Part shown: one piece after another, positions 1,228 to 31,300 of the stretch
Numbering within the stretch: the first letter of the stretch is position 1
Layout: each line of letters begins with the position of its first letter
Assembly: GCA_018335675.1 (NCBI GenBank)
Contig: JAGXRQ010000074.1
Location: forward strand, 1-48,824
DNA length: 48,824 nucleotides
From: Bacteroidota bacterium
GTDB lineage: Bacteria > Bacteroidota > Bacteroidia > Bacteroidales > UBA7960
Direction: 5' to 3'
Position numbers and translations under genes: made by a program
Notes under the pieces: generated by a model
What the model saw: the letters and a program-made list of their open reading frames with translations, nothing else
What the model was told of the DNA's origin: nothing
Databases searched by the model: none

Positions 1228-1263
1228 CATTAAAAACATCACAAATAATCTCGTCTTATTTTC

Positions 1264-1296
1264 GTAACAATTTTGTAATAATGCTGTTATCATTAT
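1264..1296 (+). promoter_or_regulatory. Three 11-bp phased repeats upstream of the phoB-like gene
   Basis: GTAAC at 1264, GTAAT at 1275 and GTTAT at 1286 recur at exactly 11-bp spacing. They are weaker in sequence than the TTAAC repeats at 4770, 7919 and 9229 but share the period. They lie about 40-72 bp upstream of the -7 element and could serve autoregulation. Confidence 0.4.
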
Positions 1297-1335
1297 TAAA
1301 TATTTTTGCTTGTTTTTTTTACAATAAATTAAAAC

Positions 1336-1343
1336 TAATTTTG
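1336..1343 (+). promoter_or_regulatory. -7 promoter element of the phoB/phoR-like pair
   Basis: TAATTTTG is an exact TAnnTTTG match 30 bp before the ATG at 1373. A TTG at 1310-1312 lies 23 bp upstream as a possible -33 element. Confidence 0.55.
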
Positions 1344-1372
1344 GGAAAAATACAGTAATTAAATAACTCAAA

Positions 1373-2071
1373 ATGAAAGCACAAAGGATACTAGTAGTTG
1401 ACGACGAAGAAGATCTTTGCGAAATTCTTAAGTTTAATCTCGAAGGTGAGGGCTTTATTGTTGACGTAGCTCATTCTGCAGAAGGAGCGCTGGCCGGTAA
1501 GCTTGACCAATACAGCTTATTGTTGTTAGACATTATGATGGGGAAAATGTCGGGGCTAAAACTTGCTGAAAAAATACGCAAGGAGATGAAGCTTACCGTT
1601 CCAATTATCTTCATTACATCCAAAGACACAGAAAATGATACCCTTACCGGTTTTAGTCTTGGTGCCGATGATTATATTTCCAAGCCTTTCTCTGTTAGAG
1701 AAGTTATTGCAAGAATAAAAGCCGTATTAAAAAGAACATCTTCTAAAGAAGAGAATGCTGATAATATAATTCGTGTTAACAACATGGAGATTGACTTGAA
1801 AAGCAAAAAAGTTTTTGTATACAAAACCCCCATTTCTCTTACAAAAAAAGAGTTTGAAATACTGTTACTGTTAGTTCAGAACCCCGGTAGAGTTTTTTCG
1901 AGAGACGAAATATTAAGCTTAATTTGGAAAAATGATGTGATAGTTGTAAACAGAACTATAGATGTAAACATTGCCAGAATCAGAAAAAAACTGGGCAGCG
2001 ATTGTGAAAAAGCATTTGTGAGTCGCTCCGGATATGGCTATTGTTTTGAACCCGATAACATTAATATTTAA
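1373..2071 (+). CDS. PhoB/OmpR-family response regulator
   Basis: A 232-residue two-component regulator. The receiver domain (about 4-118) has the acidic pair D10-D11, phospho-acceptor D53 in LLLLDIMMGKMSG, T82 and K104 in SKPF. A winged-helix DNA-binding domain follows (about 132-228), ending in the usual recognition-helix segment NRTIDVNIARIRKKLG. A sensor kinase begins 17 nt downstream, so the two form one operon of PhoB-PhoR layout. The promoter has 11-bp phased repeats. Assigning it to phosphate sensing rests on family resemblance and on operator geometry at neighbouring genes; other OmpR-type inputs remain possible. Confidence 0.93.
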   Translation: MKAQRILVVDDEEDLCEILKFNLEGEGFIVDVAHSAEGALAGKLDQYSLLLLDIMMGKMSGLKLAEKIRKEMKLTVPIIFITSKDTENDTLTGFSLGADDYISKPFSVREVIARIKAVLKRTSSKEENADNIIRVNNMEIDLKSKKVFVYKTPISLTKKEFEILLLLVQNPGRVFSRDEILSLIWKNDVIVVNRTIDVNIARIRKKLGSDCEKAFVSRSGYGYCFEPDNINI

Positions 2072-2088
2072 TTCTTCAATTTGAGATC

Positions 2089-3858
2089 ATGAGAAGAAAA
2101 ATCCCCTACAAGGTTAAGCTTTTCTTATACTTTTTTGTTGTTTTTATTTCTTTTACAAGTGTAATTACAGGCTTTCAATACAACAGGGAAAAGCAATTTA
2201 AAATCAGAGAACTAGAGAGTTTGCTAAACAGTTATACTGATTTTGCGAACAGCTATTTTCAACATAAGGCTATTTTTGAAGAGAATAACGAACATTGGTT
2301 GGATTCACTGATTAAAATATTGCCAAGAAAAGACATAAGACTTACGGTAATTGATTTTGAAGGTACTGTTTTATACGACAGCTACTATCATGATTTCAAA
2401 AATATGGAAAACCACAAGAAGAGACCTGAAATACAAAGTGCTTTTAATTTAGGAAGTGGTTCAAATATAAGATTCTCTGAGTCAACAAATTATGATTATT
2501 ATTATTATGCCAAGAAATATGAAACCTACTTTGTTAGGGCTGCTATAGAATATAATATCACAGTAAAAGAATTCTTGCAAGCTGAAACTCTTTTCTTTTT
2601 TGTGATTTTGCTATTGTTTCTTCTTATGAGTGGTATTTTACTTTATGTTTCAGGAAAAATAGGCAAGTCAATTATGGCATTAAAAGATTTCGCCATTAGA
2701 GCAGCCAATAATGAAAAAATTGAAAATCATATCGAATTTCCGGAAAATGAGCTTGGGATAATTGGAGAGCAAATTATTAGTATTTATAATAATCTAAATA
2801 AAACAAATCAGGCACTGAAAAACGAGAAAGACAAGCTGATTCATCACTTACAAATTTCTCAGGAGGGTGTTGCTATTTTCTCAAATGAGAATGAAAAAAT
2901 ATTGGCCAATAACCATTTTATACAATATTTAAGTTTAATAGCCGACTATCCGGTAAGCAACCCTTCTAAGTTTTCAGATATTGAAGATTTTATTGGGATA
3001 AAAGGGTTTATAAAGAAAAACCAATGTCAAAGCATTATTATAGACCCCAAAAACCCGCCTATAGAAAGATTGATAATTGAGAAAAATAAGAGATACTTTG
3101 ATGTTCAGTGTGTTATTTTTATTGATAAGAGTTATGAAATTTCAATAATTGATGTTACAAAAGCTGAGAAAAATAAGCTGATGAAGCAGCAAATGACCTC
3201 AAATATTGCTCATGAGTTGCGTACACCTGTTAGCTCGATAAAAGGATACCTTGAAACAGTTCTTGAAAGTAAAGATCTTCCGGAAGAAAAGAAGAAATAT
3301 TTTATTGAAAAAGCAAATAATCAAACTGAAAGATTATCTGAACTAATCAGAGATATATCAATGCTTACAAAGATTGAAGAAGCAGCAGGTCTTTACGAAA
3401 TTGAAGAGGTTGAGATTCTTGCAATTGTAAAGGATGTTATAGAAAATCTTCATTCAAAAATTGAAGATGCCGGGGTTGACATTGCTTATAAGATTAATGC
3501 TGATACAAAAATTAAAGGCAATAAGGTGTTGTTATATTCAATTTTTCAAAATCTTTTAGAGAATTCTATAAATTATGCCGGAAATGACATATCTATCTGT
3601 ATTGATGAATATCATCAGGATGATAAAAATGTGTATTTTTCATTTTCTGATAATGGTTCAGGAATAAGCGAAGAGCACCAATCTAGAATATTTGAGAGAT
3701 TTTATAGAATAGACCATGGAAGAGCTAGAAAAACAGGTGGAACGGGCTTGGGCTTGGCAATAGTAAAAAATGCAGTGCAATTTCATAAGGGAGATATTTC
3801 AGTTAAAACCAAAAAAGGTGGCGGTGCTGAATTCTTGTTTAACCTGAATAAGGGATAA
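2089..3858 (+). CDS. PhoR-like membrane sensor histidine kinase
   Basis: A 589-residue kinase and the partner of the upstream regulator. It has a first membrane helix at about 9-29, a periplasmic loop of about 135 residues, a second helix at about 166-189, a HAMP-like linker, a PAS-like segment (about 245-355) and a HisKA domain with H375 in NIAHELRTPVSS. The HATPase domain has N-box N488/N492 in NLLENSINYA, the G1 box DNGSGIS and the G2 box GGTGLGLAIVKN. All catalytic motifs are intact. The single periplasmic loop plus PAS fits the PhoR/VicK class. The stop codon lies 4 nt from the stop of a convergent gene. Confidence 0.92.
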   Translation: MRRKIPYKVKLFLYFFVVFISFTSVITGFQYNREKQFKIRELESLLNSYTDFANSYFQHKAIFEENNEHWLDSLIKILPRKDIRLTVIDFEGTVLYDSYYHDFKNMENHKKRPEIQSAFNLGSGSNIRFSESTNYDYYYYAKKYETYFVRAAIEYNITVKEFLQAETLFFFVILLLFLLMSGILLYVSGKIGKSIMALKDFAIRAANNEKIENHIEFPENELGIIGEQIISIYNNLNKTNQALKNEKDKLIHHLQISQEGVAIFSNENEKILANNHFIQYLSLIADYPVSNPSKFSDIEDFIGIKGFIKKNQCQSIIIDPKNPPIERLIIEKNKRYFDVQCVIFIDKSYEISIIDVTKAEKNKLMKQQMTSNIAHELRTPVSSIKGYLETVLESKDLPEEKKKYFIEKANNQTERLSELIRDISMLTKIEEAAGLYEIEEVEILAIVKDVIENLHSKIEDAGVDIAYKINADTKIKGNKVLLYSIFQNLLENSINYAGNDISICIDEYHQDDKNVYFSFSDNGSGISEEHQSRIFERFYRIDHGRARKTGGTGLGLAIVKNAVQFHKGDISVKTKKGGGAEFLFNLNKG

Positions 3859-3862
3859 GAGT

Positions 3863-4315
3863 TTAATAATTCTTCTTGCTTATAGAGACTCCGTTTTCAT
3901 CCCACATTTCCCAAACTCCTGATTTCTCTCCGTTTTTGTAATTTAATGAGTAGCGCAACTGACCTGTGTCGTCCCATATTCTCCAGTTGCCGTGTTTTTT
4001 GTCTTTTTTGTACTTGGCTAAAGAAACTAAAACTCCTTTTTCGTTATATTGAAGCCATGTTCCATGCTTTAAACCATTGCGAAATATTCTTATCTCTTTA
4101 ATACTGCCATCAGAGAAGTAATATTCTGATTTACCGTGAAATCTTCCGTTCTTGATATTTAGTTTGGCAGTGATTTCTCCATTCTCGTTTGTCTGAGTAA
4201 AAATGCCGCTAAATAAATCGCCATTTATGTAATAGAGGCCGTCTTTTTGTTGAATGTCTTGTGATGAAGCAATTATAAATAGAAGTAAAAACCCCAGAAA
4301 TAAAGTATATCTCAT
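3863..4315 (-). CDS. Secreted MORN-repeat (YwqK-like) protein
   Basis: A 150-residue protein with an N-terminal signal peptide (MRYTLFLGFLLLFIIASSQ). The rest is a run of roughly 23-residue repeats of the form NG..HG.W..Y...G.L, for example RNGLKHGTWLQYNEKG and KKDKKHGNWRIWDDTG. These are MORN_2 repeats as in YwqK-family proteins. The role is not known; such proteins are common secreted or periplasmic proteins in Bacteroidota. It converges with the kinase gene and has its own promoter, so it is probably not part of the two-component operon. Confidence 0.75.
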   Translation of the reverse strand: MRYTLFLGFLLLFIIASSQDIQQKDGLYYINGDLFSGIFTQTNENGEITAKLNIKNGRFHGKSEYYFSDGSIKEIRIFRNGLKHGTWLQYNEKGVLVSLAKYKKDKKHGNWRIWDDTGQLRYSLNYKNGEKSGVWEMWDENGVSISKKNY

Positions 4316-4341
4316 GTATTATATTATTAAACCTTTGACCT

Positions 4342-4360
4342 ATGAGTTAAAAAAACTCAT
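4342..4360. other. Small hairpin between two minus-strand genes
   Basis: ATGAGTT and AACTCAT are 7-bp complementary arms around a five-A loop. The hairpin lies in the leader of the MORN gene and behind the stop of the 4385-4711 gene. It lacks a proper T-tract in either direction, so a terminator role is doubtful. Confidence 0.35.
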
Positions 4361-4372
4361 TATGAACTAAAA

Positions 4373-4380
4373 CAAAAGTA
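4373..4380 (-). promoter_or_regulatory. -7 promoter element of the MORN-repeat gene
   Basis: Reads TACTTTTG on the minus strand, an exact TAnnTTTG match 58 bp before the start codon. It is located between the two minus-strand genes. Confidence 0.5.
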
Positions 4381-4384
4381 CAAA

Positions 4385-4711
4385 TTAATTTACTTGTTTT
4401 ATCTCTATGGTTTCTATTTTTCCTTTTGAAGCTGGAATTTCTGTTGCTTCGTATGAAATGTATGAAACTTTGAGTTTATCCTCAAGCATATAATAAGGTA
4501 ATTCAAGGCTGAAGTTACCATCAAGGTCTGTATATACCTTATAACTACTAATGCATATTAGTACGCCTGCAAGACTCTCTTTTGATTCAGAATCAATTAC
4601 TTTCCCTTGTAAAGAGACAAGACTCATTTCTTCTGAAATTGTTTTTGCGTTGCCTGCTATTGTTGTTAATGTTGCGGCTAAGATTGTCAAAGTTAAAAAT
4701 AATTGCTTCAT
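4385..4711 (-). CDS. Stand-alone secreted carboxypeptidase-regulatory-like domain protein
   Basis: A 108-residue protein consisting of a signal peptide (about 1-20) and one CarboxypepD_reg-like beta-sandwich. The domain runs from LQGKVIDSESKESLAGV through TDLDGNFSLELP to KVSYISYEATEI. The same domain forms the N-terminus of the divergent TonB receptor at 5019 (GTIKDKSTKETVVGASI, SDIDGNFKI, FISYNKE). A separate copy suggests a periplasmic accessory module of that receptor, but this is inference. Its promoter carries the best 11-bp phased TTAAC array of the window, which points to co-regulation with the PhoB-like system. Confidence 0.75.
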   Translation of the reverse strand: MKQLFLTLTILAATLTTIAGNAKTISEEMSLVSLQGKVIDSESKESLAGVLICISSYKVYTDLDGNFSLELPYYMLEDKLKVSYISYEATEIPASKGKIETIEIKQVN

Positions 4712-4739
4712 AGTTGTTTTTGTTTATAGTTTCATGAAG

Positions 4740-4747
4740 CAAAAGTA
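4740..4747 (-). promoter_or_regulatory. -7 promoter element of the stand-alone regulatory-domain gene
   Basis: Reads TACTTTTG on the minus strand, an exact TAnnTTTG match 29 bp before the ATG. The nearest 11-bp repeat unit starts 26 bp upstream of it. Confidence 0.6.
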
Positions 4748-4769
4748 TACCCACAATATAAAGCCTTAG

Positions 4770-4818
4770 TTAACATATTTTTATTATTACATTACTTTTA
4801 TGTTAAGCCAATGTTAAG
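4770..4818 (-). promoter_or_regulatory. Five-unit 11-bp phased array, candidate PhoB box
   Basis: On the + strand TTAAC, TTATT, TTACT, TTAAG and TTAAG start at 4770, 4781, 4792, 4803 and 4814, exactly 11 bp apart. Read on the minus strand, the two strongest units are CTTAACA followed by variable bases. PhoB/PhoP operators are direct repeats with an 11-bp period, and Bacillus PhoP prefers TTAACA, so both sequence and geometry fit. The array lies upstream of the minus-strand promoter at 4740 and could also act on the divergent receptor gene. Confidence 0.6.
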
Positions 4819-4919
4819 AACTTTGGAGTTATAGCAATGTTTATTAACTTATGAAAAGTTGTGTGGTTTTATAATCAGCAATTTACAATGTTTTTGATAT
4901 AATGATTATGTTAATTCCC

Positions 4920-4957
4920 CTAACAATAATTTGAAGATAAGTTAACAACAACTTAAT
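4920..4957 (+). promoter_or_regulatory. 11-bp phased repeats upstream of TonB receptor 1
   Basis: CTAAC (4920), TTGAA (4931), TTAAC (4942) and TTAAT (4953) keep an 11-bp period. The last two are clear and the first two degenerate. The last unit touches the -7 element. The register relative to the -7 element (4, 15, 26, 37 bp) is the same as at the 7978 promoter. Confidence 0.45.
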
Positions 4958-4964
4958 AGCTTTG
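4957..4964 (+). promoter_or_regulatory. -7 promoter element of TonB receptor 1
   Basis: TAGCTTTG is an exact TAnnTTTG match. Transcription from here would give a leader of about 50 nt before the ATG at 5019, which also argues against starting translation further upstream. Confidence 0.55.
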
Positions 4965-5018
4965 CGCTCTGTTTTTTGTTTTTTTGCAACACTATTCAAA
5001 TGTAAAATAGGTGTAATC

Positions 5019-7766
5019 ATGATCAACAAAAAGTCACTCTTTCTGACTGTATTTGCATTTTTCTTCCTTTTACCTCTTATTACATTAAGCCAAAGAGGAA
5101 ATATTAGCGGGACTATAAAAGATAAAAGTACTAAAGAAACAGTTGTGGGTGCCAGTATTATTATCAAAGGTACAACAATTGGAACAACCTCTGATATAGA
5201 TGGAAATTTCAAAATTAATAATGTAAATGCTGGATTAGTTGAGCTTGAAATTTCGTTCATTTCATATAATAAAGAAATAGTTGAGGTACAAGTCGAGCCC
5301 GGTGGTAATGCTAAAATCAATGTTGAGTTGGAGGAATTTACATTTCTTCTAGATATGGTTACAATTTCTGCTAAGAGGGAGCTGGATAATGAAAGAGTGC
5401 TGATGATGGAACAAAAAAACGCAAGTGGAATTACTCTTCAGATTGGAGCTCAAGAGTTATCCAGGAAGGGAGTTTCAGATGTAGCTACTGCAGTTACCAA
5501 AGTAACAGGTGTTTCAAAACAGGAGGGAAGCAACAGAATATATGTTCGTGGTTTGGGTGATAGATATTTATCAACAACTCTAAACGGATTACCCATACCT
5601 TCTAACAACCCTGAACTTAAGAATATCGCACTTGATTTGTTTACTACAGATATAGTAGAAATGGTAACAATTGACAAGGTATATAATGAAAAGATTTCTG
5701 GAGATTTTGCCGGCGGAAATATTGATATTGTGTCTAAAAATAGAAATAAAGAAAATTTTATTGAGTTTGAATTGGGTTCAAATGTAAATAATAATGTTTT
5801 TACAACTGATGAGTTTCTGTTGCAACAAGGACCAGATTATTTTGGTTTTTACTCAATTGCATCCCCAACAACTATTTCTGACTTTGGGTTTGTGAATTCA
5901 ATGAATCCGGTTGCGAAAAATCCAATCGGGGCAGGTTTTGCGGCTACTGCTGGAAAGGTAATCCCTTTAAAAAGAAAGGAGATAAATATATTTACGACTG
6001 TTAATTTTTCTAATGACTATAGCTTAAAAGAAGGGATTTCTAAAAATGTTAATGCCAGTGGCTATCCGTCTAAAGACTTGACTTTTTCAACCGGTAGTTA
6101 TAATACAAATACAACTGCGATGCTTAATGCTGGTTATGAAATTAACGCATTCGACAGAATTAGCTATAATTTAATTTTTATAAATTCTTCAAATCAGCAA
6201 AATGAGGATTATATGGGTACAATATTAGATATTGCTGATTACGGAAATGGAAGACTAATTCGTTCTACTTATGAAAAAAATACTCTGCTTATAAACCAGT
6301 TGCTGGGTGTTCATAAAATATCTGAATCAACAAATCTTAAATGGGGTACCTCTTATAATACAATTTCAAGCGATATGCCCGACAGAATTCAGAATACTTT
6401 CAGGTCTGAGGGAGATTCTGTGTATTTTGGACAAAATCAAATTACAGATAATCACAGATATTTTCATTATCTGAACGAATCTGAAATCGCAGGAAATATA
6501 GCTTTAGAATATTCTTTGAATAAAAAAGCTGAGGATAAATCAAATGGGAAGATATCTATTGGAGCATTTATTAGGTCGAAAAATAGAGATTTCAATTCAA
6601 TACAATATAATTTTAGAATAGCAGGAACCAATAGAAATAAGCCTGTAGACCCATACAATCTCGATTTGTTTTTTAATCAACAAAATCTTGATGAGGGCTA
6701 TTTCACTATTGAAACATTCAGAGGAAACTATCAGGTGCCTAATGTTTTAAAGCCTCAGGAATACAGTGGTACTCAAAACATATTTGGAGGTTTTTCAAGC
6801 TTAGAATACAAACTCACTCCAAAGTTTATTGCAATTGTTGGTCTTAGAGCAGAATACATTTATCAGGAAGTGAAATGGAATACCCAAATAGACCCCCTCG
6901 ACAGAAGGGATGCTTTTGAAAGAATTGAATTTCTGCCGGTTGTAACAACTAAATACGAAGTTACTCAAAAACAGAATTTACGTTTTGCAGCTAATAAATC
7001 ATACACTTTGCCGCAATTTAAAGAAAGAGCATTTTTTATTTATGAAGAGGTTACACAAGTAAAAATAGGTAACCCCGATTTATATCCCTCCGAAAATTAT
7101 AATGCCGATTTAAAATGGGAGTATTTCCCTACTTTGGGAGAGGTATTTTCTGTTACTGCTTTTGGAAAATATATCTTAAATCCTATTAACGAAGTTACAA
7201 TTTCTTCAGCTACCAACGATATATCATTCTTAAACACAGGCGATTGGGGTTATGCAATGGGGCTTGAGTTTGAAGCAAAAAAAGACATTATTAAGTTCAA
7301 TAATTCAAGCATAATAGGAGGACTTAATTTTACATATATGATTACTGAGCAAGAGCTTAACTCTGAAAAGGTTAAAGAAGAAACACGCTATATAGTTTCT
7401 TTTACTCATGAAACTGCATCATTTGCAGGAGCAGCTGATTATTTGCTAAATGGCGACATAACTTACAAATATTCTTGGAAGAATGGTCTTAATAATATAA
7501 TGTCAACAATAACTTACCAACATACCTCAGATAAAATCTACGCAATTGGAACAGATTCCAGAGGCAATATAATCGACAAAGGTTTTGGCTTATTAAACTT
7601 CATTATCAAAACTGAATTTTCAAACAAATTTGGCATTGGAATAAGTGTTAACAATTTATTAAATCCAACCATACAGAAAGTTCAAGCCAACGAATGTAAT
7701 GATATAGTCGTTTACTCTTATCAAAAAGGATTGTTCTACAGTTTGAAAATGAATTTTAGGTTTTAA
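5019..7766 (+). CDS. TonB-dependent outer-membrane receptor 1 (SusC/Oar-like)
   Basis: About 915 residues from the chosen ATG, which gives a normal signal peptide (MINKKSLFLTVFAFFFLLP); the frame extends upstream only through the promoter. A CarboxypepD_reg-like domain follows (GTIKDKSTKETVVGASI), then a plug domain with the typical VTKVTGVSKQEGSNRIYVRGLGDRYLSTTLNGLPIPS and a long beta-barrel ending in SLKMNFRF. The C-terminal phenylalanine is typical of outer-membrane barrels. It imports an unknown substrate using TonB energy. No SusD partner is present; the beta-helix lipoprotein at 8022 is the likely surface partner. The promoter has 11-bp repeats. Confidence 0.92.
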   Translation: MINKKSLFLTVFAFFFLLPLITLSQRGNISGTIKDKSTKETVVGASIIIKGTTIGTTSDIDGNFKINNVNAGLVELEISFISYNKEIVEVQVEPGGNAKINVELEEFTFLLDMVTISAKRELDNERVLMMEQKNASGITLQIGAQELSRKGVSDVATAVTKVTGVSKQEGSNRIYVRGLGDRYLSTTLNGLPIPSNNPELKNIALDLFTTDIVEMVTIDKVYNEKISGDFAGGNIDIVSKNRNKENFIEFELGSNVNNNVFTTDEFLLQQGPDYFGFYSIASPTTISDFGFVNSMNPVAKNPIGAGFAATAGKVIPLKRKEINIFTTVNFSNDYSLKEGISKNVNASGYPSKDLTFSTGSYNTNTTAMLNAGYEINAFDRISYNLIFINSSNQQNEDYMGTILDIADYGNGRLIRSTYEKNTLLINQLLGVHKISESTNLKWGTSYNTISSDMPDRIQNTFRSEGDSVYFGQNQITDNHRYFHYLNESEIAGNIALEYSLNKKAEDKSNGKISIGAFIRSKNRDFNSIQYNFRIAGTNRNKPVDPYNLDLFFNQQNLDEGYFTIETFRGNYQVPNVLKPQEYSGTQNIFGGFSSLEYKLTPKFIAIVGLRAEYIYQEVKWNTQIDPLDRRDAFERIEFLPVVTTKYEVTQKQNLRFAANKSYTLPQFKERAFFIYEEVTQVKIGNPDLYPSENYNADLKWEYFPTLGEVFSVTAFGKYILNPINEVTISSATNDISFLNTGDWGYAMGLEFEAKKDIIKFNNSSIIGGLNFTYMITEQELNSEKVKEETRYIVSFTHETASFAGAADYLLNGDITYKYSWKNGLNNIMSTITYQHTSDKIYAIGTDSRGNIIDKGFGLLNFIIKTEFSNKFGIGISVNNLLNPTIQKVQANECNDIVVYSYQKGLFYSLKMNFRF

Positions 7767-7879
7767 GGTTTAGGGTTTAGGGTATAGGGTATAGGGTATA
7801 GGGTATAAGGTATAAGGGTATAAGGGTATAACCTAAAACCTGACACCCGACACCTAAAACCTGACACCTATTACCAAAT
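7760..7879. repeat. Intergenic array of 7-bp units behind TonB receptor 1
   Basis: Starting at the stop codon, units close to TAGGGTA / TTAGGGT repeat every 7 bp to about 7830, with a few one-base insertions. The array then switches to the complementary flavour ACCTAAA, ACCTGAC, ACCCGAC, still in 7-bp steps. Within this, a 17-bp sequence beginning ACCTAAAACC is perfectly repeated at 7831 and 7852 (21 bp, three units). The two halves could pair as a long imperfect hairpin. Related arrays lie at 18212 and 20325. Confidence 0.8.
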
Positions 7880-7918
7880 CATCACATCAACCATAATCTT
7901 CCCAATCTTCCAATCAAA

Positions 7919-7956
7919 TTAACCTAATCTTAATGCAATTATAAAATTGGCTTAAC
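7919..7956 (+). promoter_or_regulatory. 11-bp phased TTAAC repeats upstream of the beta-helix lipoprotein gene
   Basis: TTAAC at 7919, TTAAT at 7930 and TTAAC at 7952, with ATAA at 7941, keep an 11-bp register. The last strong unit (CTTAACA) lies 26 bp before the -7 element. This is the same distance as at the divergent promoter at 4740, which supports a real operator. Confidence 0.58.
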
Positions 7957-7977
7957 AGCATTAAAAAATACTCAGAA

Positions 7978-7985
7978 TACTTTTG
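7978..7985 (+). promoter_or_regulatory. -7 promoter element of the beta-helix lipoprotein gene
   Basis: TACTTTTG is an exact TAnnTTTG match 37 bp before the ATG at 8022. It overlaps a TTG that would otherwise look like an upstream start codon, so that start can be excluded. Confidence 0.6.
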
Positions 7986-8021
7986 TGCCGTAAATCGATT
8001 ATTAACAATTTTAAAAAAAAA

Positions 8022-9170
8022 ATGATGAAAAACTTATTCAAACTATTCTGTCTGCTAGCTGTAATTTCTATCGCTACTGTAAGTTGCGATAAAGACGACA
8101 ATGATGATGATCTTAATCAAATTGATCCTGAAAACTTTCAAGGTGAATTAACCGAAGGTACCTATACGTTAGATCCTGAAAAAACATATAAACTAACAGG
8201 ATTGGTTTATGTAAATGAAGGTGCTGAACTAGTTATTCCGGCAGGAACATTAATTGAAGCTACCGGTGGAACATCTGCAGCAATTATTGTTAAGCAAGGT
8301 GGAAAAATATTTGTAAACGGAACAAAAGAAGCTCCTGTTGTAATGACATCTGGTTTGGCAACAAAAAAAGCCGGAGATTGGGGCGGATTAGTTATTTGTG
8401 GAAGAGCTACTTGTAATTCTGGTGGTGGTATTTCAGAAGTTGGCGATAGCCCTTATGGTGGAACTACTGATAATGATGATTCTGGTGTTATTAAATATTT
8501 AAGAATTGAATACTCTGGTGCTGCATTCAATAGTGAAAAAGAATACAATGGCTTTTCATTATTTGGTGTAGGTAGCGGCACTGTGATAGAATATGTTCAG
8601 ATATATGAGAATGCAGACGATGGTATAGAGTTTTATGGTGGTACTGTTACTGCAAATTATATAATTGTTGCTAATGTTGAAGATGATATGTTTGACTGGA
8701 CTGAAGGTTGGAATGGTTCAGGAAGCTATTGGTTTGGTAAAAATGATCAAGGTTACGGAAACAGGGGTATGGAATGCGACAACTGGTCTACTAATCATAG
8801 TGCTACACCGGTTGCTAATCCAACTATTTCAAATGTAACTTTAATTGGAAGCGGCGACCAAGGCAATGAACCTCAAGGTATGGAACTAAGAGCAGGTACG
8901 CAAGGAACAATTAATAATGTTGTTCTTAAAGATTGGAAACATGGTATTAGAGTTTCAGGAGACGTTAGTAATGGTTACATGGGTGATGAATTGACAGTTT
9001 CTAATGTTAAATTTATTGATTGCGTTGTGAAAGTAACTGCTCGTAATAATGCTGGTGAATCATTTGAAATTCCAGAAGGTTTCTATTCTGAAAACGAAAG
9101 TGCAACAGGTGCTGGCGCAGGCGCAAGTGTTCCTGCTTGGGCTCAAGGCTGGACAATAGGATTGGAATAG
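8022..9170 (+). CDS. Beta-helix surface lipoprotein paired with TonB receptor 1
   Basis: About 382 residues. ATG 8022 (or the adjacent 8025) is chosen because the -7 element lies just upstream. A lipoprotein signal (LAVISIATVSC) is followed by an Asp-rich linker (DKDDNDDDLN) typical of surface-exposed Bacteroidota lipoproteins. The body is rich in Gly, Asn and Val with repeating strands (IIVKQGGKIFVNGTKEAPVV, GVIKYLRIEYSG, NPTISNVTLIGSG), suggesting a right-handed parallel beta-helix. A family of such proteins is often found next to TonB receptors in this phylum; the substrate is unknown. A hairpin terminator follows. Confidence 0.75.
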   Translation: MMKNLFKLFCLLAVISIATVSCDKDDNDDDLNQIDPENFQGELTEGTYTLDPEKTYKLTGLVYVNEGAELVIPAGTLIEATGGTSAAIIVKQGGKIFVNGTKEAPVVMTSGLATKKAGDWGGLVICGRATCNSGGGISEVGDSPYGGTTDNDDSGVIKYLRIEYSGAAFNSEKEYNGFSLFGVGSGTVIEYVQIYENADDGIEFYGGTVTANYIIVANVEDDMFDWTEGWNGSGSYWFGKNDQGYGNRGMECDNWSTNHSATPVANPTISNVTLIGSGDQGNEPQGMELRAGTQGTINNVVLKDWKHGIRVSGDVSNGYMGDELTVSNVKFIDCVVKVTARNNAGESFEIPEGFYSENESATGAGAGASVPAWAQGWTIGLE

Positions 9171-9193
9171 TAATTATAACTTCAAATTGCCTC

Positions 9194-9229
9194 AAAGCCT
9201 GGTGGATTTATTTCATCAGGCTTTTTTCT
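9194..9229 (+). terminator. Rho-independent terminator after the lipoprotein gene
   Basis: AAAGCCTG (9194-9201) pairs with CAGGCTTT (9217-9224) around an AT-rich loop and runs into a T-tract. Confidence 0.8.
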
Positions 9230-9244
9230 TAATATTTTCTTAAT
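9228..9244 (+). promoter_or_regulatory. Two 11-bp spaced CTTAAT repeats upstream of the second regulator
   Basis: CTTAATATT occurs at 9228 and again at 9239, exactly 11 bp apart, overlapping the terminator T-tract. A near-match to the -7 element (TTATTTTG, 9277-9284) lies 37 bp downstream of the second unit, the 11-bp register seen at 7952 (26 + 11). Confidence 0.45.
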
Positions 9245-9303
9245 ATTACTGCAATCAATCTTTTACAATAAAAGAATTATTTTGCTGTGTAAAAAAATGA
9301 ATT

Positions 9304-10011
9304 ATGAATAAAAAATCAATTCTGCTTGTTGACGATGAGGAAGATATTCTTGAGTTCCTTGAGTTTAATTTTTCTGCCAGCGGGTATGATGTTTTTACCG
9401 CAAACAATGGCAAAGATGCTATAGATATTGCAGTTAAAAAGAAACCGGATGTTATCATTTTAGATATTATGATGACAGGTATGGATGGCATTCAGGTGTG
9501 CGAGAAACTAAAAGAAATTGGTCAAAATAACGACAGTCTTATTATGTTTTTTACTGCAAGGGGAGAAGATTATTCTCAAATTGCCGGATTTGATGCAGGT
9601 GCCGATGATTTTGTAGTTAAGCCAATTAGTCCGAAAGTCTTGATAAAGAGAGTGGAAGCTTTGCTTAAAAGAAAAGGTAAAATTGAAAAAGAAGAAGAGA
9701 TAATTGTCTCCGATGATATTAAAATAGGAAAGCTTGTTATTGATAGAGAGCAGTATCAAATAAACTTAAATGGAAAAGTAATAATCTTACCAAGAAAAGA
9801 ATTCAATTTGCTTGAATTGCTCGCATCAAAACAAGGGAAAGTTTTTACCCGGGATGAAATTTTTGACGGGGTTTGGGGCGATACATTCATCGGCGATAGA
9901 ACAATAGATGTTCATATTAGAAAACTTAGAGAAAAGCTTGGCGAAGAATCTATAGTAACTGTTAAAGGTATTGGCTATAAAATTAATAGCACCTTCTTTG
10001 AGAATTGTTAA
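9304..10011 (+). CDS. Second PhoB/OmpR-family response regulator (orphan)
   Basis: A 235-residue regulator with receiver domain (D10-D11, phospho-acceptor D54 in VIILDIMMTGMDG, T84, K106 in VVKPI) and a C-terminal winged helix ending RTIDVHIRKLREKLG...VKGIGYKI. All key residues are present. No kinase gene adjoins it, so it may be phosphorylated by the PhoR-like kinase at 2089 or by a distant kinase. It is clearly diverged from the first regulator (for example in the 110-140 linker). It converges with a small basic protein gene 3 nt away. Confidence 0.9.
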   Translation: MNKKSILLVDDEEDILEFLEFNFSASGYDVFTANNGKDAIDIAVKKKPDVIILDIMMTGMDGIQVCEKLKEIGQNNDSLIMFFTARGEDYSQIAGFDAGADDFVVKPISPKVLIKRVEALLKRKGKIEKEEEIIVSDDIKIGKLVIDREQYQINLNGKVIILPRKEFNLLELLASKQGKVFTRDEIFDGVWGDTFIGDRTIDVHIRKLREKLGEESIVTVKGIGYKINSTFFENC

Positions 10012-22367: not shown

Positions 22368-25300
22368 ATGAGAAAGAATTCTACAATTAAGTCCCTGTCC
22401 TTCTTAATCTTTGTTTTCAACATTATTGTAATTCAAAATGTTATTTCTCAATCTCCTAATCAGTTTTCTTATCAAATAATATTAAGAGATTCAGAAAACG
22501 AATTGGTGAAAAATACTGATGTTGGAATAAAAATAAGCATATTAAAGAGCAGTGCCGAAGGGGAGTCGGTTTATTCTGAGACTCATTCGTCAAAAACAAA
22601 TATTAACGGGCTTGTTACAATTGCCATTGGTAATGGTCAACCCATAGGAAATATCTCTGCTGTCAACTGGCTCGAAGGCCATTATTATGTTAAAGCTGAG
22701 ATTGATCTCAATGGAGGCGAAAACTATACAGTTTCAGTAATTACTGAAATTATGAGCGTTCCATATTCTCTTTATGCCAAAACGACAGAGAGTATTACTG
22801 GTGGCTTAGATAAAGGCAACCTTTATTATTGGGATGGTAGCAAGTGGGTAACTATCAATGCAGGAAAAGATGGAACTGCGCTAGTTCTTTGCAATGGAAT
22901 TCCAACGTGGGGTGGCTGTAAAGAAGATGCTGATCAGCCAATTATGGTTGTTGAAAATAAAGATAATCAACGAGTACTGTCTGTTTATCAAGATGGTGTC
23001 GTGGTAAATGTTCCTGATTCTGATAATAAATCTGGTCGTGGTGGTTTCGCAGTTGGTGGGTTTACTTCTGAAAAGGATTTTCCATCAGAGTTCTTTTTGG
23101 TTACTCCGGATTCAGTTAGAGTTTATATTCAAACCGAAGAAGAGACTAAAAGTGGAAGAGGTGGCTTTGCTGTTGGAGGCTTCACATCTGAAAAAGAAAA
23201 AGCTCCCGATACTTTTTTTAAAGTTTTGAGTGATGCAACAGTTTTATCAACTAATGTTATTACAGATGAAGATATAATAATCGGAGGAGATACTAATATT
23301 GGTGGAAATATTGTTTTCAGACCTCAAGTTACTACTTTGCTTGCATTTGTTAACGAAATTATTGAGAAAATTGAGCTCTCAGGTTTAGTTGCAAATAACG
23401 GAGGAGGTGTTATTACTCAAGTAGGTTTCTTTTATAATTTAAATCCAATTGCCGAAACAGGTGGAACACTAGTTCCTTCAATATTTGTTGAAGGAGTGCC
23501 ATTTACAGCAAATATTGACATCTCTTTGCTTCTGCCGGGCTCTACTTATTATACCAGAGCTTTTGCTAGAAATAATGCTGGGGTAAGTTATGGTGAGGTT
23601 CTAAGTTTTGAAGCCCCAATTGTTTTATCTGATGTCTTTACTTTAAGTGTAACAGATGTAACAACAAATTCTGCAATCGCAAATGCTTCTGTTACATTTG
23701 AAGGTGGAGGTAGTGTTAATCAACGTGGATTTGTTTGGGGAATGTCTACCAATCCAGATTTGAGCAATTACATGGGGATCACAACAGAGGGAGTTGGACT
23801 TGGTTCGTTTTCTTCTGTGTTAACTAACTTATTACACAACACAGAATACTTTATCAGAGCATATGCTGTAAATGAAGCCGGAGTTGCATATGGTGATGAA
23901 ATTGTTTTCACAACTGAGTTTGACCCTGAAGTAATTGATGTTCAGTTTAATGTTTTAAATATCAATAACTTATTCCCAATTGATAATGCTGCCATAGATT
24001 TTGGTTCTGGTTTTATCTGGCACACAGGAATTAATGGAGTTGCTTGGATTCAATTATCTCAGGGTGAACATCCTTATACTGTTAGTGCTGACGGATATCA
24101 AGATTTAACCGATGTTGTTGAAGTATATGAAGGCATGAATACAGAGATAGTATTGCTTGAGCCTGTTGTTGAAACAGTTATTGACATTGATGGAAATGTT
24201 TATGAAGTAATAACAATCGGAAACCAAAAGTGGATTAAGACTAATCTAAAAACTACAAGGTTTAATGATAGTGAGACTGATTTTATTCAAACAGGATATT
24301 CAGATATAGCCTGGGAAAATCTTACCACTCCTGCATATTCTATTTATTCTTCCAATGATGTTACGGGGATAGATTCTGATGAGCAAATGGTATCGGCTTA
24401 TGGGTTGCAATACAACTGGTTTGCAGTTGATTCTGACAGGCTATGCCCAATTGGTTGGAAAGTGCCTACATTTGATGATTGGTTGGAGTTAGATGGTTTC
24501 CTTAAAACTGAATACTCAGTTACCGAGGTTGGTGGCTTGATGAAAGATACACGCACTGAACCTGAGGATCACCCTAGATGGGATGCTCCAAATGAAGGCG
24601 CCACAAACCAATCTGGTTTTTCAGGTTTGCCGGCAGGTGTTAGGTTGGGTGGCTATTGGGATATTGGACTTTACGGGTCATGGTGGACTTCAGAAGAGCC
24701 TGCATTATTTATGTTGGTTAATGGCGGCGACTATCTATCATACGCAGCAGAACAACCTGTGCAAACAGGAGCTTCAGTTAGGTGCCTCTGGAACAATGGT
24801 TTACCTAAAGTAAATAAACCTCAGTTCCCAAGTATGATTCTGGATAGCATCAAAGTAGCCTCTGATATTATTGATCTCGGATTCTCTTCTGAATACCCTA
24901 TTATAAAAAGAGGATTTCAATTAAGTCAGGACCCTTCTTTTAATAATCCTTTAACATGGGATGAAAACACTTCTAATCTTGGAGTTTTCTTTCATACTTT
25001 CAAAAATCTTGACATTGGTATTACATATTACGTAAGAGCTTTTGTGATAAATGCACTTGGTACAGAGTATAGTAAAGCAGCCGAGTTTAAAACGTTTACT
25101 TTAGTTGATGTTGAAAGAAATATCTATGATATAGTTAATGTTGAAGGACAATATTGGATTGCTCAAAACCTTAGAACACAAGCTTACAACGACAATGAGC
25201 AAATAAATCAGGATTGGAATATTAAAGGAATTGGCTCTGTAAAATATAGTTCTTATAATGATTTAAACAACACAGATGTATTTGGGTCATTTTATAATAG

Positions 25301-28300
25301 TATTGCAGTATCTTCTGATAAGCTTTGTCCAGCAGGTTGGCATATCCCCACAGCCAAAGATTTTATTGATTTAATAGATAATGTAGGCGGAGGCCTTCAG
25401 GTTGTTAATAAATTGAAAGGAACAGAATATTGGGAGGGTACTAATTTTGCAACAAATGATTATGGCTTTAATGCATTACCTGGCGGACAATTTGTTGAAG
25501 ATTTAGGTGAGCATATGATTAATGGTTTTGGATTTTTAGCTTATTGGTGGTCAAATACTACTTTTCAAGAATATATTCAAGAAAATACAAAAGTTGCTAA
25601 CTCAGGAAAAACTAGATATGAATCAGAAATGTCTCATTTTGCAATAGGCATCCACTACGACAGTGATTTATTGGATCATGGTTTTATAGGTGATAATCTC
25701 GGATTAAATGCTCGTTGTATCTGGAACAATGGTCTTCCAAAAGTGAAAAAGCCTGTTGTGATATCTAATGAAATACTGGAAACTGTTGAAGTTGGTTCAA
25801 AATTGATTGATCATGGCGGAAACCCATATATTGAATTTCACAGAAAAGGTTTTGTAATTAGCTTAGATACATTGCCTACTCTTATGCCCGGAGAATTTTT
25901 CGGTTATTATGAGTCATTTGACCCATATATTGGTAATTATTCAGCATTCTTAGATAACCTTTCACCCGGAGTTACTTATCACGTCAGGGCTTTTGCAGAA
26001 AATGATTTAGGCATATTCTATAGTGATGGAATTAAATTTAAAGCCTTTACTGTTAAAGATATTGATAACAATAGCTACGATATTATTAAAATTGGAACAC
26101 AATTCTGGATGGGTAGAAACCTTGAAACTACAAGGTTTAATAATGGAGTGGATATTACAGAGATTTCTTCCGGTACTGCTCAAGAACCCCAAAATACTGG
26201 CATAACATACCGCACTTATAACGATATGCCGGGAGATTTAGCTTACAATTTCGGATTGGTGTATTCTCATGCTGTGGTTGATGATTCAAATTATAATGTT
26301 TGTCCGACAGGATGGAAGGTGCCCAGCTTAGATGACTGGAATGATTTATTTACTCAACTTGGAGGCGTAGAAGTTGCCGGTGGCAAAATGAAAACAACTG
26401 ATACATACCCTGATAATCATGGGAATAGTTATTGGTTGCAGCATGATCCACCAACTGCATCAAACTCAAGCGGTTTTTCTGCTGTTCCTGCAGGTCCTCA
26501 AGGATTGTCAGGATATTACTATGGAATATCAAGTGATACAACGCCGGGAGCTCATTTTTGGTCATCAACAACAACTCCTGTTGAGGGTGATGATTACAGA
26601 AAAACAACAATTTATCTTTCTCACGATACTGAGGCCGTTAATTATTACTATGCTACTACGGAATATGGCAAACAGGATGGGTTAAGTATCAGATGTCTAA
26701 TGCATATCGGAAACCCTGTTGTTTCTACCCAGAGGGTTGTAAATGTTACGCAAAACTCCGCAGTAGCAGGTGTAAGCGTAATTTATGAGAGAGGAAATAA
26801 ACCCGACGCAATTGGTTTAGTCTGGAGCAAACTGCCCGAGCCTTCATTTGAAATAAATGATGGGTTAGTATTTAATAGCAATATTGATGCTGAAGCCAAA
26901 TTTGAGCTAAGCGGATTGACTAAGAATACATTATACTTTGTGAGAGCTTTTGCTACAATTGGTGGTACACATTTTTATGGAGATGAGGTTTCTTTTAAAA
27001 CTTATTTTGGAACTGTTACAGACGTAGAGGGAAATATTTATAATACTGTGAAAATTGGCAACCAACTTTGGATGGCTGAAAATTTAAGAGTTATTCAATA
27101 TAATTCTGATGGAAGCTTTATTCCATTTTATGATTTTTATGATCCTTGGGAGAATGTTTCAGGATTTGGCGCATATACTTATCATCCAAGCGAAGGAGAG
27201 ATTAAAATGGATGTAAATTATGGCAATTTATATAATTGGCATGCCGTAAATGATGCTAGAGGTCTTTGCCCCACTGATTGGCGTGTGCCCGATGATAATG
27301 ATTGGAATGAACTAGTCTATTTTGTTGACAAAGACGCAATTGGCAACGACAATATTGCAGGAAGTAAGCTCAAATCAACATCAAGGTACCCAGATTCACA
27401 CCCAAGATGGTTAAACCCAAATAGCAGTGCAATAAACGACCATGGATTTTCTGCCGTGCCCGGAGGTAATCGTCATAGCTGGGGTGGATCTCAACAGTTC
27501 GAATCTTTGGGGGAAAGCGCATTATTTTGGAGCTTGTCAGATGCTGGGAATAACGCATCATTTTTTCGTATATATTTCTTGGATGAAGATATGGCTAATT
27601 ATTCTTATAATAAGCACTATGGACTGTCTGTAAGGTGTATTAAAAATCAACTGCCAATAGAAGACTTTGAAGGTGGCTCAGGAACTGAAGGTGATCCATA
27701 TCTGGTAGCAAATGCTGCCCAACTCAATAATGTGAGAAATTTCCTTGGTGCTCACTTCAGGCAAACTGCTGATATAGATCTTGGTGTTGCTCCTTGGAAT
27801 GAAGGTCAAGGGTGGGAGCCAATTGGGGAATACGGTTGGGACGACCCTCTATACTCTACATTCTTCACGGGAGTTTATGATGGAAATGGTTTTGAAATTC
27901 AGAATCTTACAATAAATCGCCCTCAAATGGTAAGGGTTGGTCTTTTTGGCGCTTCATTTGGACTTGGAGAGCTTTATGGAGAATTTCATAATATAGCTCT
28001 TATTGATGTAAATGTGACAGGTAGTGATGAAGTTGGGGCGCTTATTGGTCATTTGGGCGGAGAGTCTTTAATTACTAAGTCCTATGCTACAGGTAATGTT
28101 AATGGAACAACAATGAATGCTTATACCAGAGTAGGAGGATTGGTTGGTATAGTCATGAATAACTCAGTTATTAATAGTTCATATTTCAATGGTGAAGTAA
28201 ATGGCTATGGTCGAGTTGGTGGTCTTGCAGGAGAAGTTTCAGGCTTCGTTCAAAATTGCTATGCCACCGGAATTGTTTCTGCTATGGAGTTTGGTGGTGG

Positions 28301-31300
28301 TTTGGTAGGTGATTTATGGGCTGGAAATATAGATAAATCATACTCTGTTGCAGTGGTTAACTGCGATATTAATTGTGGCGGTCTTACAGCTAATGTATAC
28401 ACTGATCAGGCTAATGTAACTAATTCATACTGGGATGTTATTAAATCAGGAAAGGCTACAAGTGCCGGAGATGAGGTCGGACTTACTACTGATCTTATGA
28501 TACAAGAGGCTTCTTTTGTTGATTGGGATTTTGTAGATGTTTGGGATATAATTGAAGATGATTCTTATCCTTTCCTTAGATGGCAAGTGGCTCCTGGAGA
28601 TCATAATTTCGGAAAAGATTTCGGTGGAGGTGATGGCTCTGAACTTAATCCATTCATTATTAAAACAGCAAGACACATTAATAACATTAGAAATTATTTA
28701 GATGTTGAACATGCTGATAAATATTTTAGTCAAACAGCCGATATTAACCTCGGCGTTGCTCCATGGAACGAAGGCGAAGGTTGGTTGCCAATTGGTGAAT
28801 ATGACTTCCCTGCAACGCCTTTTACCGGGAATTACAATGGTAACGGTTTTGCTATTGATGGTTTGTTTATTAATCGTGATTATTATAATCAAGGATTATT
28901 TGGATATGCAATTGGAGCAAGTATTAGTAATGTTATATTAAACAATGTTTCAATTACAGCAGATTCATATATTGGAAGCTTGTTGGCTGAAGGCGAGGGA
29001 GTAACGATTAGTAATTGCGTTGCCAATGGTGCCATAAATGGAAGTGGATCATTTGGAGGTTTAGTTGGGTATATTTATGATAGCGTAGAACCATCTTCTT
29101 TTACAGATTGCTCTTTTACAGGCAGTATTATTGCTAGCGACAGTAATGTAGGTGGGTTTATTGGCGAAGTTTATGGTTCAATGGGAAGTATTATTAATAT
29201 TACAAATTGTTCATATTCAGGTGACCTTTCTGCAGGTGGTGCTGTAATTGGTGGTTTTATTGGAGAAGTAAGATACACTAATATTCAAAATTGTTATAAT
29301 GAGGGAACGGTTTATTCAGGAAGTGGCGATAGCGGCGGTTTCATCGCATATACTTATGATACTACAGTTGATAATTGTTATTCTACTGCTGATATGACGG
29401 TTGAAATTAATGGAGCAAGCTTTTCAGGTGGTTTTATTGGTTTTGTTAATTCAGGATGTATTATTTCTAATTGTTATAGCGCAGGAACTATGACTGCAGA
29501 TAACCATAGCGGTGGATTTATTGGGTTTTTAGATATGGATACTTATGTTGTAAATTGCTATAACTATGGAGACTCATTCTTTTATGATGGTTGTGGAGGT
29601 GGATGTGGTTACTACAATGGTGGTTTCATAGGCTGGGCGGAAAGAGCTGTGGTTGAAAATTGCTTTAATTATGGAAACGTTATAGGCACAAAACAGATTG
29701 GAGGTTTTATTGGCCTTAGCAGGGATATGACCATTAAAAATAGTTATTCAATAGGTAACGTGGAAGGTATTAATAATATAGGTGGTTTTATTGGTCAAAT
29801 TGAACAAAGCTCAAATGTGGAAAATTGCTTTAGTGCAGGCCTTATTACTGCAAGTTCAGTTGGTGGCGGACTAATTGGTGTAAATTTTAATTCTACTGTT
29901 AAATATTCATTTTGGGATACTGACTTGTCTGGATACAACGAATCTGCAGGTGGAATTGGCAAATCTACATCCGAAATGCAGGAATTAGTAAATTATGTTC
30001 AGTTTGGTTGGGATTTTAAAGGACTTGGTCTAAATGAATTATGGAATCTAGGTAATGGCAGAAATGAAGGGTATCCATATTTGAATTATCAATATCCATC
30101 AGACCCATCAAATCCTGATACTGCTAATGATTTTCTTTCTGTTATTGAAACTCATCTTTCAACAGAGTTTACTAAATCATCTGCTACTCTAAATGGAAGT
30201 ATTGTTTTCATCGGTTCTCCCGCAGCTACTGAATACGGATTTTGTATAAATACATTAGGCAGCCCAACAATATCTGATATGACAATTACTTCGGCTCTTC
30301 CTATTGAACCTGGTGATTTTTCATTAATTGTTGAGAATCCGGATGTGGAGCAAGGAATAGTATATTACGCAAGAGCTTATGCCATTAGCCCATATGGTGT
30401 TGCTTATGGAAATGAAATTATGTTCTCTCTTGAACCCGAGGGTAGTGGTATATTACTTGATCCCTATCTTATAGAATCTCTTGCTGATTTACTTTGGGTC
30501 TCTAATACTTCTGTTAATTTGAGTAGTTTTTCAGGTAGTTATTTACTACAGTCTTCTGATATTGATGCCACTCCAACGTCAACTTGGAATGATGGTAAAG
30601 GGTTTAATCCAATTGGGCATATTTCATATGCTACTTTTGCAGGGAACTATAATGGCGGAGGGAACTCTATTGTTGGATTAACAATAAACAGGCCTGGAAA
30701 AGATTATATGGGCTTATTTGGCTATATTTACTTTGCAACAATTTCAAATCTCGGACTTATTGATGCAAATATTACAGGAAAGGATTTTGTTGGTGCTTTA
30801 TCAGGTTATGCTTGGTCGTCAAATTTTTCCCAGTGTTTTTCTGATGGTAATGTGTATGGAACAACTTATGTTGGTGGATTAATAGGTTATTTAAGTAATT
30901 CTTCATCAACTAATGATTCATACAGCACTGCAAATGTTGATGGGTTTTCGTATCTTGGAGGCCTTTGCGGGGTTAGTAATGGATCTTCTATAAATAGATG
31001 CTACAGTAAAGGTCAAGTTTTAGGTGATAATAATGTTTCCGGCTTAGTTTCCGGCTTCAGTCCCGGTGCTAGTTTCTCATACTGGGATATGGAATCATCA
31101 GGTCTTATTTCATCATCCGGAGGTATTGGCCAGGTTACTGAAGATATGATGCTTTCTTCTAGTTTTGTGGGTTGGGATTTTTTGGATACATGGAGTATTG
31201 TTGAAGGTGTTACTTACCCTTTCCTTCTATGGCAGGGTGCTCCTGGAGATCATAACTTTAAACCTCTTTTTGCAGGGGGGGCTGGTACCCTTATAAACCC

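Follow-up and report, generated by a model that had tools for sequence, protein, structure and literature searches.

Tandem 11-bp repeats in fixed register with the -7 element as predicted Pho boxes of a Bacteroidales phoBR locus

Which operator do PhoB-type regulators recognize in the Bacteroidota? Phosphate regulation in this phylum has so far been described through expression data and electrophoretic mobility shift assays (EMSA), and the full-text literature, with most subscription journals outside the search, yielded no defined Bacteroidota Pho box. The question is raised by a contig of a Bacteroidota bacterium of the UBA7960 lineage (order Bacteroidales; GenBank JAGXRQ010000074.1, assembly GCA_018335675.1), whose 48,824 nucleotides are referred to here as the window. 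TTAAC-like words recur at an 11-bp step upstream of five of its genes, namely phoB, which is followed by phoR, a small gene starting at 4711 on the minus strand (the 4711 gene), a TonB-dependent receptor gene, a lipoprotein gene and the gene of a second PhoB-like response regulator (RR2). The original prediction took these words for a candidate Pho box. We find that the half-site consensus is NTAACA followed by five loose bases, and, going by sequence and comparison, the arrays are very probably Bacteroidota Pho boxes, that is, tandem head-to-tail 11-bp half-sites for PhoB-family regulators.

The predicted phoB operator (1253..1296, plus strand) consists of four 11-bp units, GTCTTATTTTC at 1253, GTAACAATTTT at 1264, GTAATAATGCT at 1275 and GTTATCATTAT at 1286. 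After a 4-bp gap follows the -7 element TATTTTTG (1301..1308, plus strand), which starts 15 bp past the start of the last unit. The 4711 gene is preceded on the minus strand by six units (4752..4817; TTAACATTGGC TTAACATAAAA GTAATGTAATA ATAAAAATATG TTAACTAAGGC TTTATATTGTG, starting at 4817, 4806, 4795, 4784, 4773 and 4762) and the -7 element TACTTTTG (4740..4747, minus strand). The remaining three arrays are on the plus strand. Upstream of the receptor gene lie CTAACAATAAT TTGAAGATAAG TTAACAACAAC (4920..4952; starts 4920, 4931 and 4942) and the -7 element TAGCTTTG (4957..4964), with TTTTTTTG at 4979 as an alternative in the same register. The lipoprotein array, TTAACCTAATC TTAATGCAATT ATAAAATTGGC TTAACAGCATT (7919..7962; starts 7919, 7930, 7941 and 7952), is followed by TACTTTTG (7978..7985), 26 bp past the start of the last strong unit, and the RR2 array, TTAATATTTTC TTAATATTACT GCAATCAATCT TTTACAATAAA (9229..9272; starts 9229, 9240, 9251 and 9262), by TTATTTTG (9277..9284). 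One unit is weak in each of the receptor (4931), lipoprotein (7941) and RR2 (9251) arrays. The units of phoB are G-type at their first base, those of the other four promoters mostly T-type.

In all five promoters the units start at 15+11k bp upstream of the first base of the -7 element: at 15, 26, 37 and 48 bp for phoB and likewise for RR2, at 15 to 70 bp for the six units of the 4711 gene, at 15, 26 and 37 bp for the receptor gene and at 26, 37, 48 and 59 bp for the lipoprotein gene. Re-reading confirmed every coordinate of the direct repeats first described at the five promoters. The 26 bp given for the last strong unit at the 4740 (minus) and 7978 promoters are exact (4773 to 4747, 7952 to 7978), and the shared register claimed for the units before 4957 and 9277 extends to all five sets, which are equal modulo 11. 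The series placed on the plus strand at 4770-4814 does mark a repeated stretch, but the reading that is in register with the 4740 promoter is on the minus strand.

Could such a pattern arise without a regulator? The region is AT-rich and a period of 11 is close to the helical repeat, and helically phased A-tracts (bent DNA or UP elements) might produce it, a reading that we regard as very improbable. We counted TTAA or [TG]TAA[CT] words in 260-bp upstream regions and compared them with 1000 dinucleotide shuffles, a check on density that had been set beforehand. The five promoters hold 8 word pairs at 11 bp against 0.6 expected, a number reached by 0 of the 1000 shuffles. Steps of 22 bp (P 0.020) and 33 bp (P 0.005) were over-represented as well. 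Five other distances among the 40 tested (16, 30, 31, 41 and 42) also gave P<0.05, with 3 pairs each. Besides the shuffles, two properties argue against phased A-tracts: the conserved word, which includes a C (TAAC), recurs in further promoters of this family, and only offset 15 modulo 11 stands out.

For scoring we used a unit model made from 24 units of the pst promoters of six other genomes, and a phase score in which the -7 element was allowed one mismatch. The six training promoters had been chosen via a GTAAC-like pattern match and therefore are no independent test, whereas the promoters of the window, the receptor genes and the class-level loci are. Compared with 160 upstream regions of the own genome, the five window promoters reached an area under the curve (AUC) of 0.94 for the tandem score at period 11. 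Periods 8 (0.82) and 14 (0.87) were raised too, and periods 9, 10, 12 and 13 gave 0.50-0.68. The phase score was sharper, with an AUC of 0.97 at offset 15 and 0.18-0.74 at ten other offsets, the top of these being offset 18 (p 0.035). The phoB, receptor and RR2 promoters each exceeded all 160 upstream regions both on three tandem units and on phase; the best phase score of the receptor promoter uses TTTTTTTG at 4979 (16.8), the element at 4957 giving 14.7. Taken singly, the lipoprotein promoter was significant on phase (P 0.006) and the 4711 promoter on tandem units (P 0.025).

We also scanned 495 kb of own DNA, composed of the window, background stretches and loci fetched by TTAAC patterns, with some overlap. 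The phoB promoter ranked first, in keeping with autoregulation, followed by RR2, by the promoter of a DUF4168 gene and by the receptor promoter at ranks four and six. Nine sites scored at least 12. Four of them belong to phoB, RR2 and, twice, the receptor gene, and two further ones lie in the window without a close downstream gene; the lipoprotein and 4711 sites score below 12.

The third-ranking site is a phase-locked array, TTAACTAATCC TTTATCATTTT TTAACAGGTAG TTGGTGAAATT before TACCTTTG (L209 1479-1573, in contig C132 of genome G000 near 35574). It precedes a gene for a protein of 180 amino acids (aa) with a DUF4168 match, which is a possible additional regulon member. Simple patterns were rejected as detectors. 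With one mismatch allowed, TTAACN6TTAAC as a stand-alone pattern occurred 351 times genome-wide against 877 times for the reversed pattern. TTAACN21TANNTTTG, suggestive but weak without the 11-bp term, gave 17 matches genome-wide against 19 for its reverse; eight of these matches come from a single repeat, and two of the other nine lie in the window. The repeat, TTAACTGATTGATTTTCTTTTGTTTATATTTTTG, mimics the promoter pattern and is present in eight identical copies (own-genome contigs C5, C24, C31, C43, C62, C65, C99 and C147), some of them near contig ends.

Is the register kept in related genomes? PhoB passed its family cut-off in 17 of 98 relatives. Six of the ten genomes with both PhoB and PstC above cut-off have a pst promoter with four units, the last of them 15 bp ahead of a -7-like element, for example GTAACAATTAT GTAACAATTAT GAAATATGCTT GTAATCTTTTT, 4 bp and TAATATTG. 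The receptor promoters were compared with 106 control upstream regions drawn from 20 neighbourhoods. From 34 receptor loci 33 remained, the window's included, after removal of L107, which is identical to L041; L136 also repeats L041. At period 11 the AUC was 0.896 (p 3.6e-12), at periods 7-10 and 12-16 it was 0.49-0.63. For 24 non-training promoters of PhoB genomes the phase AUC was 0.92 at offset 15 (p 3e-11) and 0.47-0.61 at ten other offsets. Several top-scoring controls are themselves probable Pho genes, which share the intergenic region of the module or occupy the place of a porin. Conservation of the 11-bp spacing and of the -7 phase before orthologous genes, the other check set beforehand, was thus observed. 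Together with the excess over shuffled DNA and the pst arrays in six of ten relatives, it supports the Pho-box reading.

Several results weigh against this reading. Four of the ten PhoB genomes are without a clear four-unit pst array, one of them being cut by a contig end. The own genome has no PstC match over the cut-off, and its one PhoU-domain match is weak and lies within a 572-aa frame. In the window, the lipoprotein promoter reaches only P 0.26 on three tandem units and the 4711 promoter only P 0.156 on phase. Taken together, the pst promoters of RR2-class genomes show no enrichment (n=19, AUC 0.53), though 6 of 20 lie above the 95th percentile of the controls. Among the pst loci, L077/L160 (contig end) and L246 (from a genome without an RR2 match) were left out, and L248 was too short for the phase test. 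In RR2-only genomes the receptor promoters stand out less (n=10, AUC 0.72, p 0.008). The signal at the RR2 genes themselves is equivocal: their upstream regions (39 loci, 38 after dropping L071, for which no start was found) gave an AUC of 0.70 at period 11 and equally at period 9, and 5 of 38 exceeded the 95th percentile of the controls; the starts used for L222, L232, L236 and L065 are unusually placed, far from where starts normally lie, and may be mistaken. At class level, 15 RR2 promoters gave p 0.12 for phase and 0.095 for tandem units.

How do the arrays compare with known operators? PHO boxes of E. coli precede pst and the regulator's own gene, and E. coli PhoB acts at -35, where it recruits the sigma factor. 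The PhoP box of Bacillus subtilis is TTAACA-like with an 11-bp step and has nearly the same hexamer as found here; it belongs to another phylum and promoter type, and the likeness is no more than a lead. PMC4415409 describes the PHO box as a series of direct repeats of 11 nt, arranged in tandem, with some seven bases conserved and head-to-tail binding. The Bacteroidota arrays resemble the E. coli box in this build but differ in the word (NTAACA here, CTGTCAT there), in having three to six units and in being fixed in register to the Bacteroidota -7 element TAnnTTTG. Direct 11-bp repeats in head-to-tail order, at least two per site, a location upstream of phosphate-acquisition genes of the clade (pst in six of ten relatives) and a fixed core-promoter position were all found, and the arrays would be a phylum-specific variety of an operator type already known.

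Within the phylum, the nearest described motif is that of Riemerella anatipestifer PhoP, whose most conserved letters in DNA affinity purification sequencing (DAP-seq) are TTTAACA and were likened to ArcA, as given in the main text (PMC9603813). This Bacteroidota regulator, too, binds upstream of its own operon, and a TonB-receptor promoter is among its EMSA targets; the main text of that paper contains neither Pho box nor direct repeat, and no -7 phase was seen there (PMC9603813). In a Riemerella PhoP mutant pstS mRNA was 8-fold higher (PMC5399024). PhoB of B. fragilis binds a 512-bp pst promoter fragment in EMSA, and the word consensus is absent from the main text of that paper (PMC3547664).

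What follows is our inference on regulator binding and activation, on phosphate as the signal and on the receptor's substrate. At low phosphate PhoR would become active and PhoB, perhaps RR2 too, would be phosphorylated. The regulators would occupy neighbouring half-sites, each one helical turn from the next, in head-to-tail order, as proposed in line with the PhoB structural studies reviewed in PMC4415409. With the promoter-nearest half-site starting 15 or 26 bp before TAnnTTTG, the array would take the place of a -33 element; the bound regulator would cover this place and recruit the sigma factor. Switched on would be phoBR, the TonB receptor, the lipoprotein, the small 4711 protein and RR2, and receptor and lipoprotein would probably scavenge phosphorus compounds at the cell surface. 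A box in fixed register would let Pho regulons be predicted from sequence in the Bacteroidales and related families of the class.

Which regulators are present at the locus? The suggested PhoB/PhoR-like pair passes the curated Bacteroidota family cut-offs: PhoB (1373..2071, plus strand) scores 327.7 bits with NF053854 (cut-off 270) and the sensor kinase PhoR (2089..3858, plus strand) 672.4 bits with NF053855 (cut-off 500). RR2 (9304..10011, plus strand) fails the NF053854 cut-off with 204.2 bits, close to the 205.8 bits of the RR2-type regulator of the class-level locus L331, and is without an adjoining kinase gene in the window. Judged from its sequence, RR2 is a distinct PhoB-like protein.

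The receptor (5010..7766, plus strand; with a CarbopepD_reg_2 domain) and the lipoprotein (8022..9170, plus strand) are adjacent in 24 of 24 neighbourhoods (23 distinct) and in 20 of 20 at class level. A MORN_2 protein (3863..4315, minus strand) and the small CarboxypepD_reg-like protein of the 4711 gene (4385..4711, minus strand) recur as neighbours of this module, and their like often join it in the 24 neighbourhoods. PhoB and PhoR lie near it in five of these (L138, L141, which is cut by a contig end, L144, L150 and L152) and RR2 in four (L042, L044, L139 and L147), two of which also hold a kinase of 342-343 aa. The lipoprotein profile matched 251 of 395 genomes of a phylum sample at E 1e-20, many of the matches lying inside longer proteins that need not be orthologs; the 20 class-level neighbourhoods were taken from the better matches. 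In 15 of these 20 loci a kinase and RR2 are divergent from receptor and lipoprotein, and 37 receptor and lipoprotein promoters stood out against 131 controls at the register (AUC 0.77, p 1.6e-7) and gave 0.40-0.55 at other offsets. Six of the eight top class-level controls (L327, L328, L331, L332, L343 and L345) are the gene at the position of the porin; Pfam identified this gene in L331 alone, where a Porin_O_P gene comes next after the kinase.

This gene neighbourhood also bears on the idea that the arrays serve some other OmpR-family regulator, ArcA- or RprY-like, which would answer a non-phosphate signal and merely lie beside phoBR. Operators of the OmpR family are commonly direct repeats near 10-11 bp, and four Trans_reg_C domains were found in the genome. 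The ArcA likeness drawn by the authors of the Riemerella motif (PMC9603813, main text) points the same way. We nevertheless consider such a regulator unlikely: the module lies near PhoB or RR2 in 9 of 24 neighbourhoods and near RR2 in 15 of 20 class-level ones, and a model trained on the pst promoters of other genomes ranks phoB first in 495 kb.

What, then, is RR2? In F. johnsoniae a cluster encodes OprP (Fjoh_0542), PhoR (0543), PhoB (0544), the receptor (0545) and the lipoprotein (0546), and Fjoh_0545 and Fjoh_0546 are strongly induced on phosphate depletion (8.02 and 9.91 in the table's first value column; PMC8115612). The order of porin, PhoR, PhoB, TonB receptor and lipoprotein is the same as that beside RR2 in L331; the words Pho box, motif and promoter are absent from the main text of the F. 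johnsoniae paper (PMC8115612). Because the gene order in L331 and the class-level loci matches Fjoh_0542-0546, RR2 is most likely, judged by gene order alone, the protein named PhoB in Flavobacterium, and the 8022 lipoprotein is likely the counterpart of F. johnsoniae FII. The PhoB of Bacteroides and that of Flavobacterium may consequently be different, often alternative paralogs. Of the 295 genomes from the order, 154 have an RR2 ortholog at E 1e-60. Among the matches listed, ten PhoB genomes are without RR2 (G048, G054, G057, G065, G067, G069, G071, G074, G076 and G086), and G000, G177 and G284 carry both.

Do the two regulators divide the locus between them? Four arrays might belong to RR2, as the flavobacterial type of PhoB, and the phoB array to the Bacteroidales type, with the first base of the half-site deciding; we give this somewhat less than an even chance. 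Such a division of labour is plausible because the phoB units are G-type and those of the other four window promoters mostly T-type. At two adjacent positions of the recognition helix PhoB has T or A followed by R in 34 of 34 rows, RR2 has R followed by K, each in 32 of 33 rows; going by PhoB structures, we take these positions to contact DNA. The wing consensus differs as well, being less conserved than the recognition helix.

First bases were counted, with the first base left free, only where the promoter exceeded the 95th percentile of the controls (13 of 24, 7 of 30 and 23 of 30). G was the first base of 22 of 38 units in PhoB-only genomes (58%), of 3 of 21 units in RR2-only Bacteroidales (14%) and of 15 of 76 units in RR2-linked class-level promoters (20%), so that PhoB-only genomes differ from both RR2 sets (Fisher p 0.002 and 9e-5). 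Units in one promoter are not independent, however, and class assignments limit the comparison: RR2 absence in PhoB-only genomes beyond the listed ones is inferred, G007, G023, G024, G026, G389, G364 and G421 were classed as RR2 from NF053854 scores of 200-216 bits, L042 and L044 as RR2-only from the neighbouring gene alone, and G221 as PhoB from two fragments under the cut-off. L043, with no regulator assigned, was omitted from the class comparison, and L252, classed as RR2 though its genome G084 has no RR2 match, fell under the threshold and outside the base counts. Background composition leans the same way as the sites, with GTAAC:TTAAC at 325:315 near PhoB and 142:293 near RR2; measured against it, the bias has p 0.009 for PhoB and p 0.06 for RR2.

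The Riemerella motif TTTAACA (PMC9603813, main text) would fit a T-type preference of RR2, provided that Riemerella PhoP is its ortholog. A strict code of G versus T is weakened by the class-level RR2 sites, in which A is the commonest first base and some units start with C or G. RR2's own promoters, with a signal equal at periods 11 and 9 (n=38) and p 0.12 at class level (n=15), give the split no clear support. The full proposal therefore stays tentative. It holds that two PhoB types, elsewhere often alternatives, coexist here, that PhoB drives itself via the G-type array and RR2 drives the receptor module and itself via T-type arrays, and that half-sites of GTAACA versus T/ATAACA are matched by the differing recognition helices. 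If true, a bacterium that seems to have no Pst would run a two-tier phosphate circuit, and a locus with both regulator types allows their site preferences to be compared directly. The autoregulated regulon of the original prediction is supported with one amendment: phoB has the top site, but RR2 is distinct and may own the four T-rich promoters, so that one regulon under PhoB alone is only a candidate.

Some further features adjoin the module or the locus. In L331 (3241-4695) a 112-aa protein with a type IX secretion system (T9SS) sorting tail and a 241-aa LuxE-like protein adjoin the module, and open reading frames (ORFs) of equal lengths (112 and 241 aa) occur at that position in L328, L343 and L344. 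In the window, degenerate tandem GGGTATA/GGTTTAG repeats (7767-7860) lie between the receptor gene and the lipoprotein gene, shortly before the promoter of the latter. Several inverted repeats of the form GAGACGCGCC...GGCGCGTCT (240-1080) flank a 173-aa minus-strand ORF (295-816), which, from a motif read by eye, resembles a REP-associated tyrosine transposase. Positions 22368-33572 are occupied by one open frame of 3734 aa.

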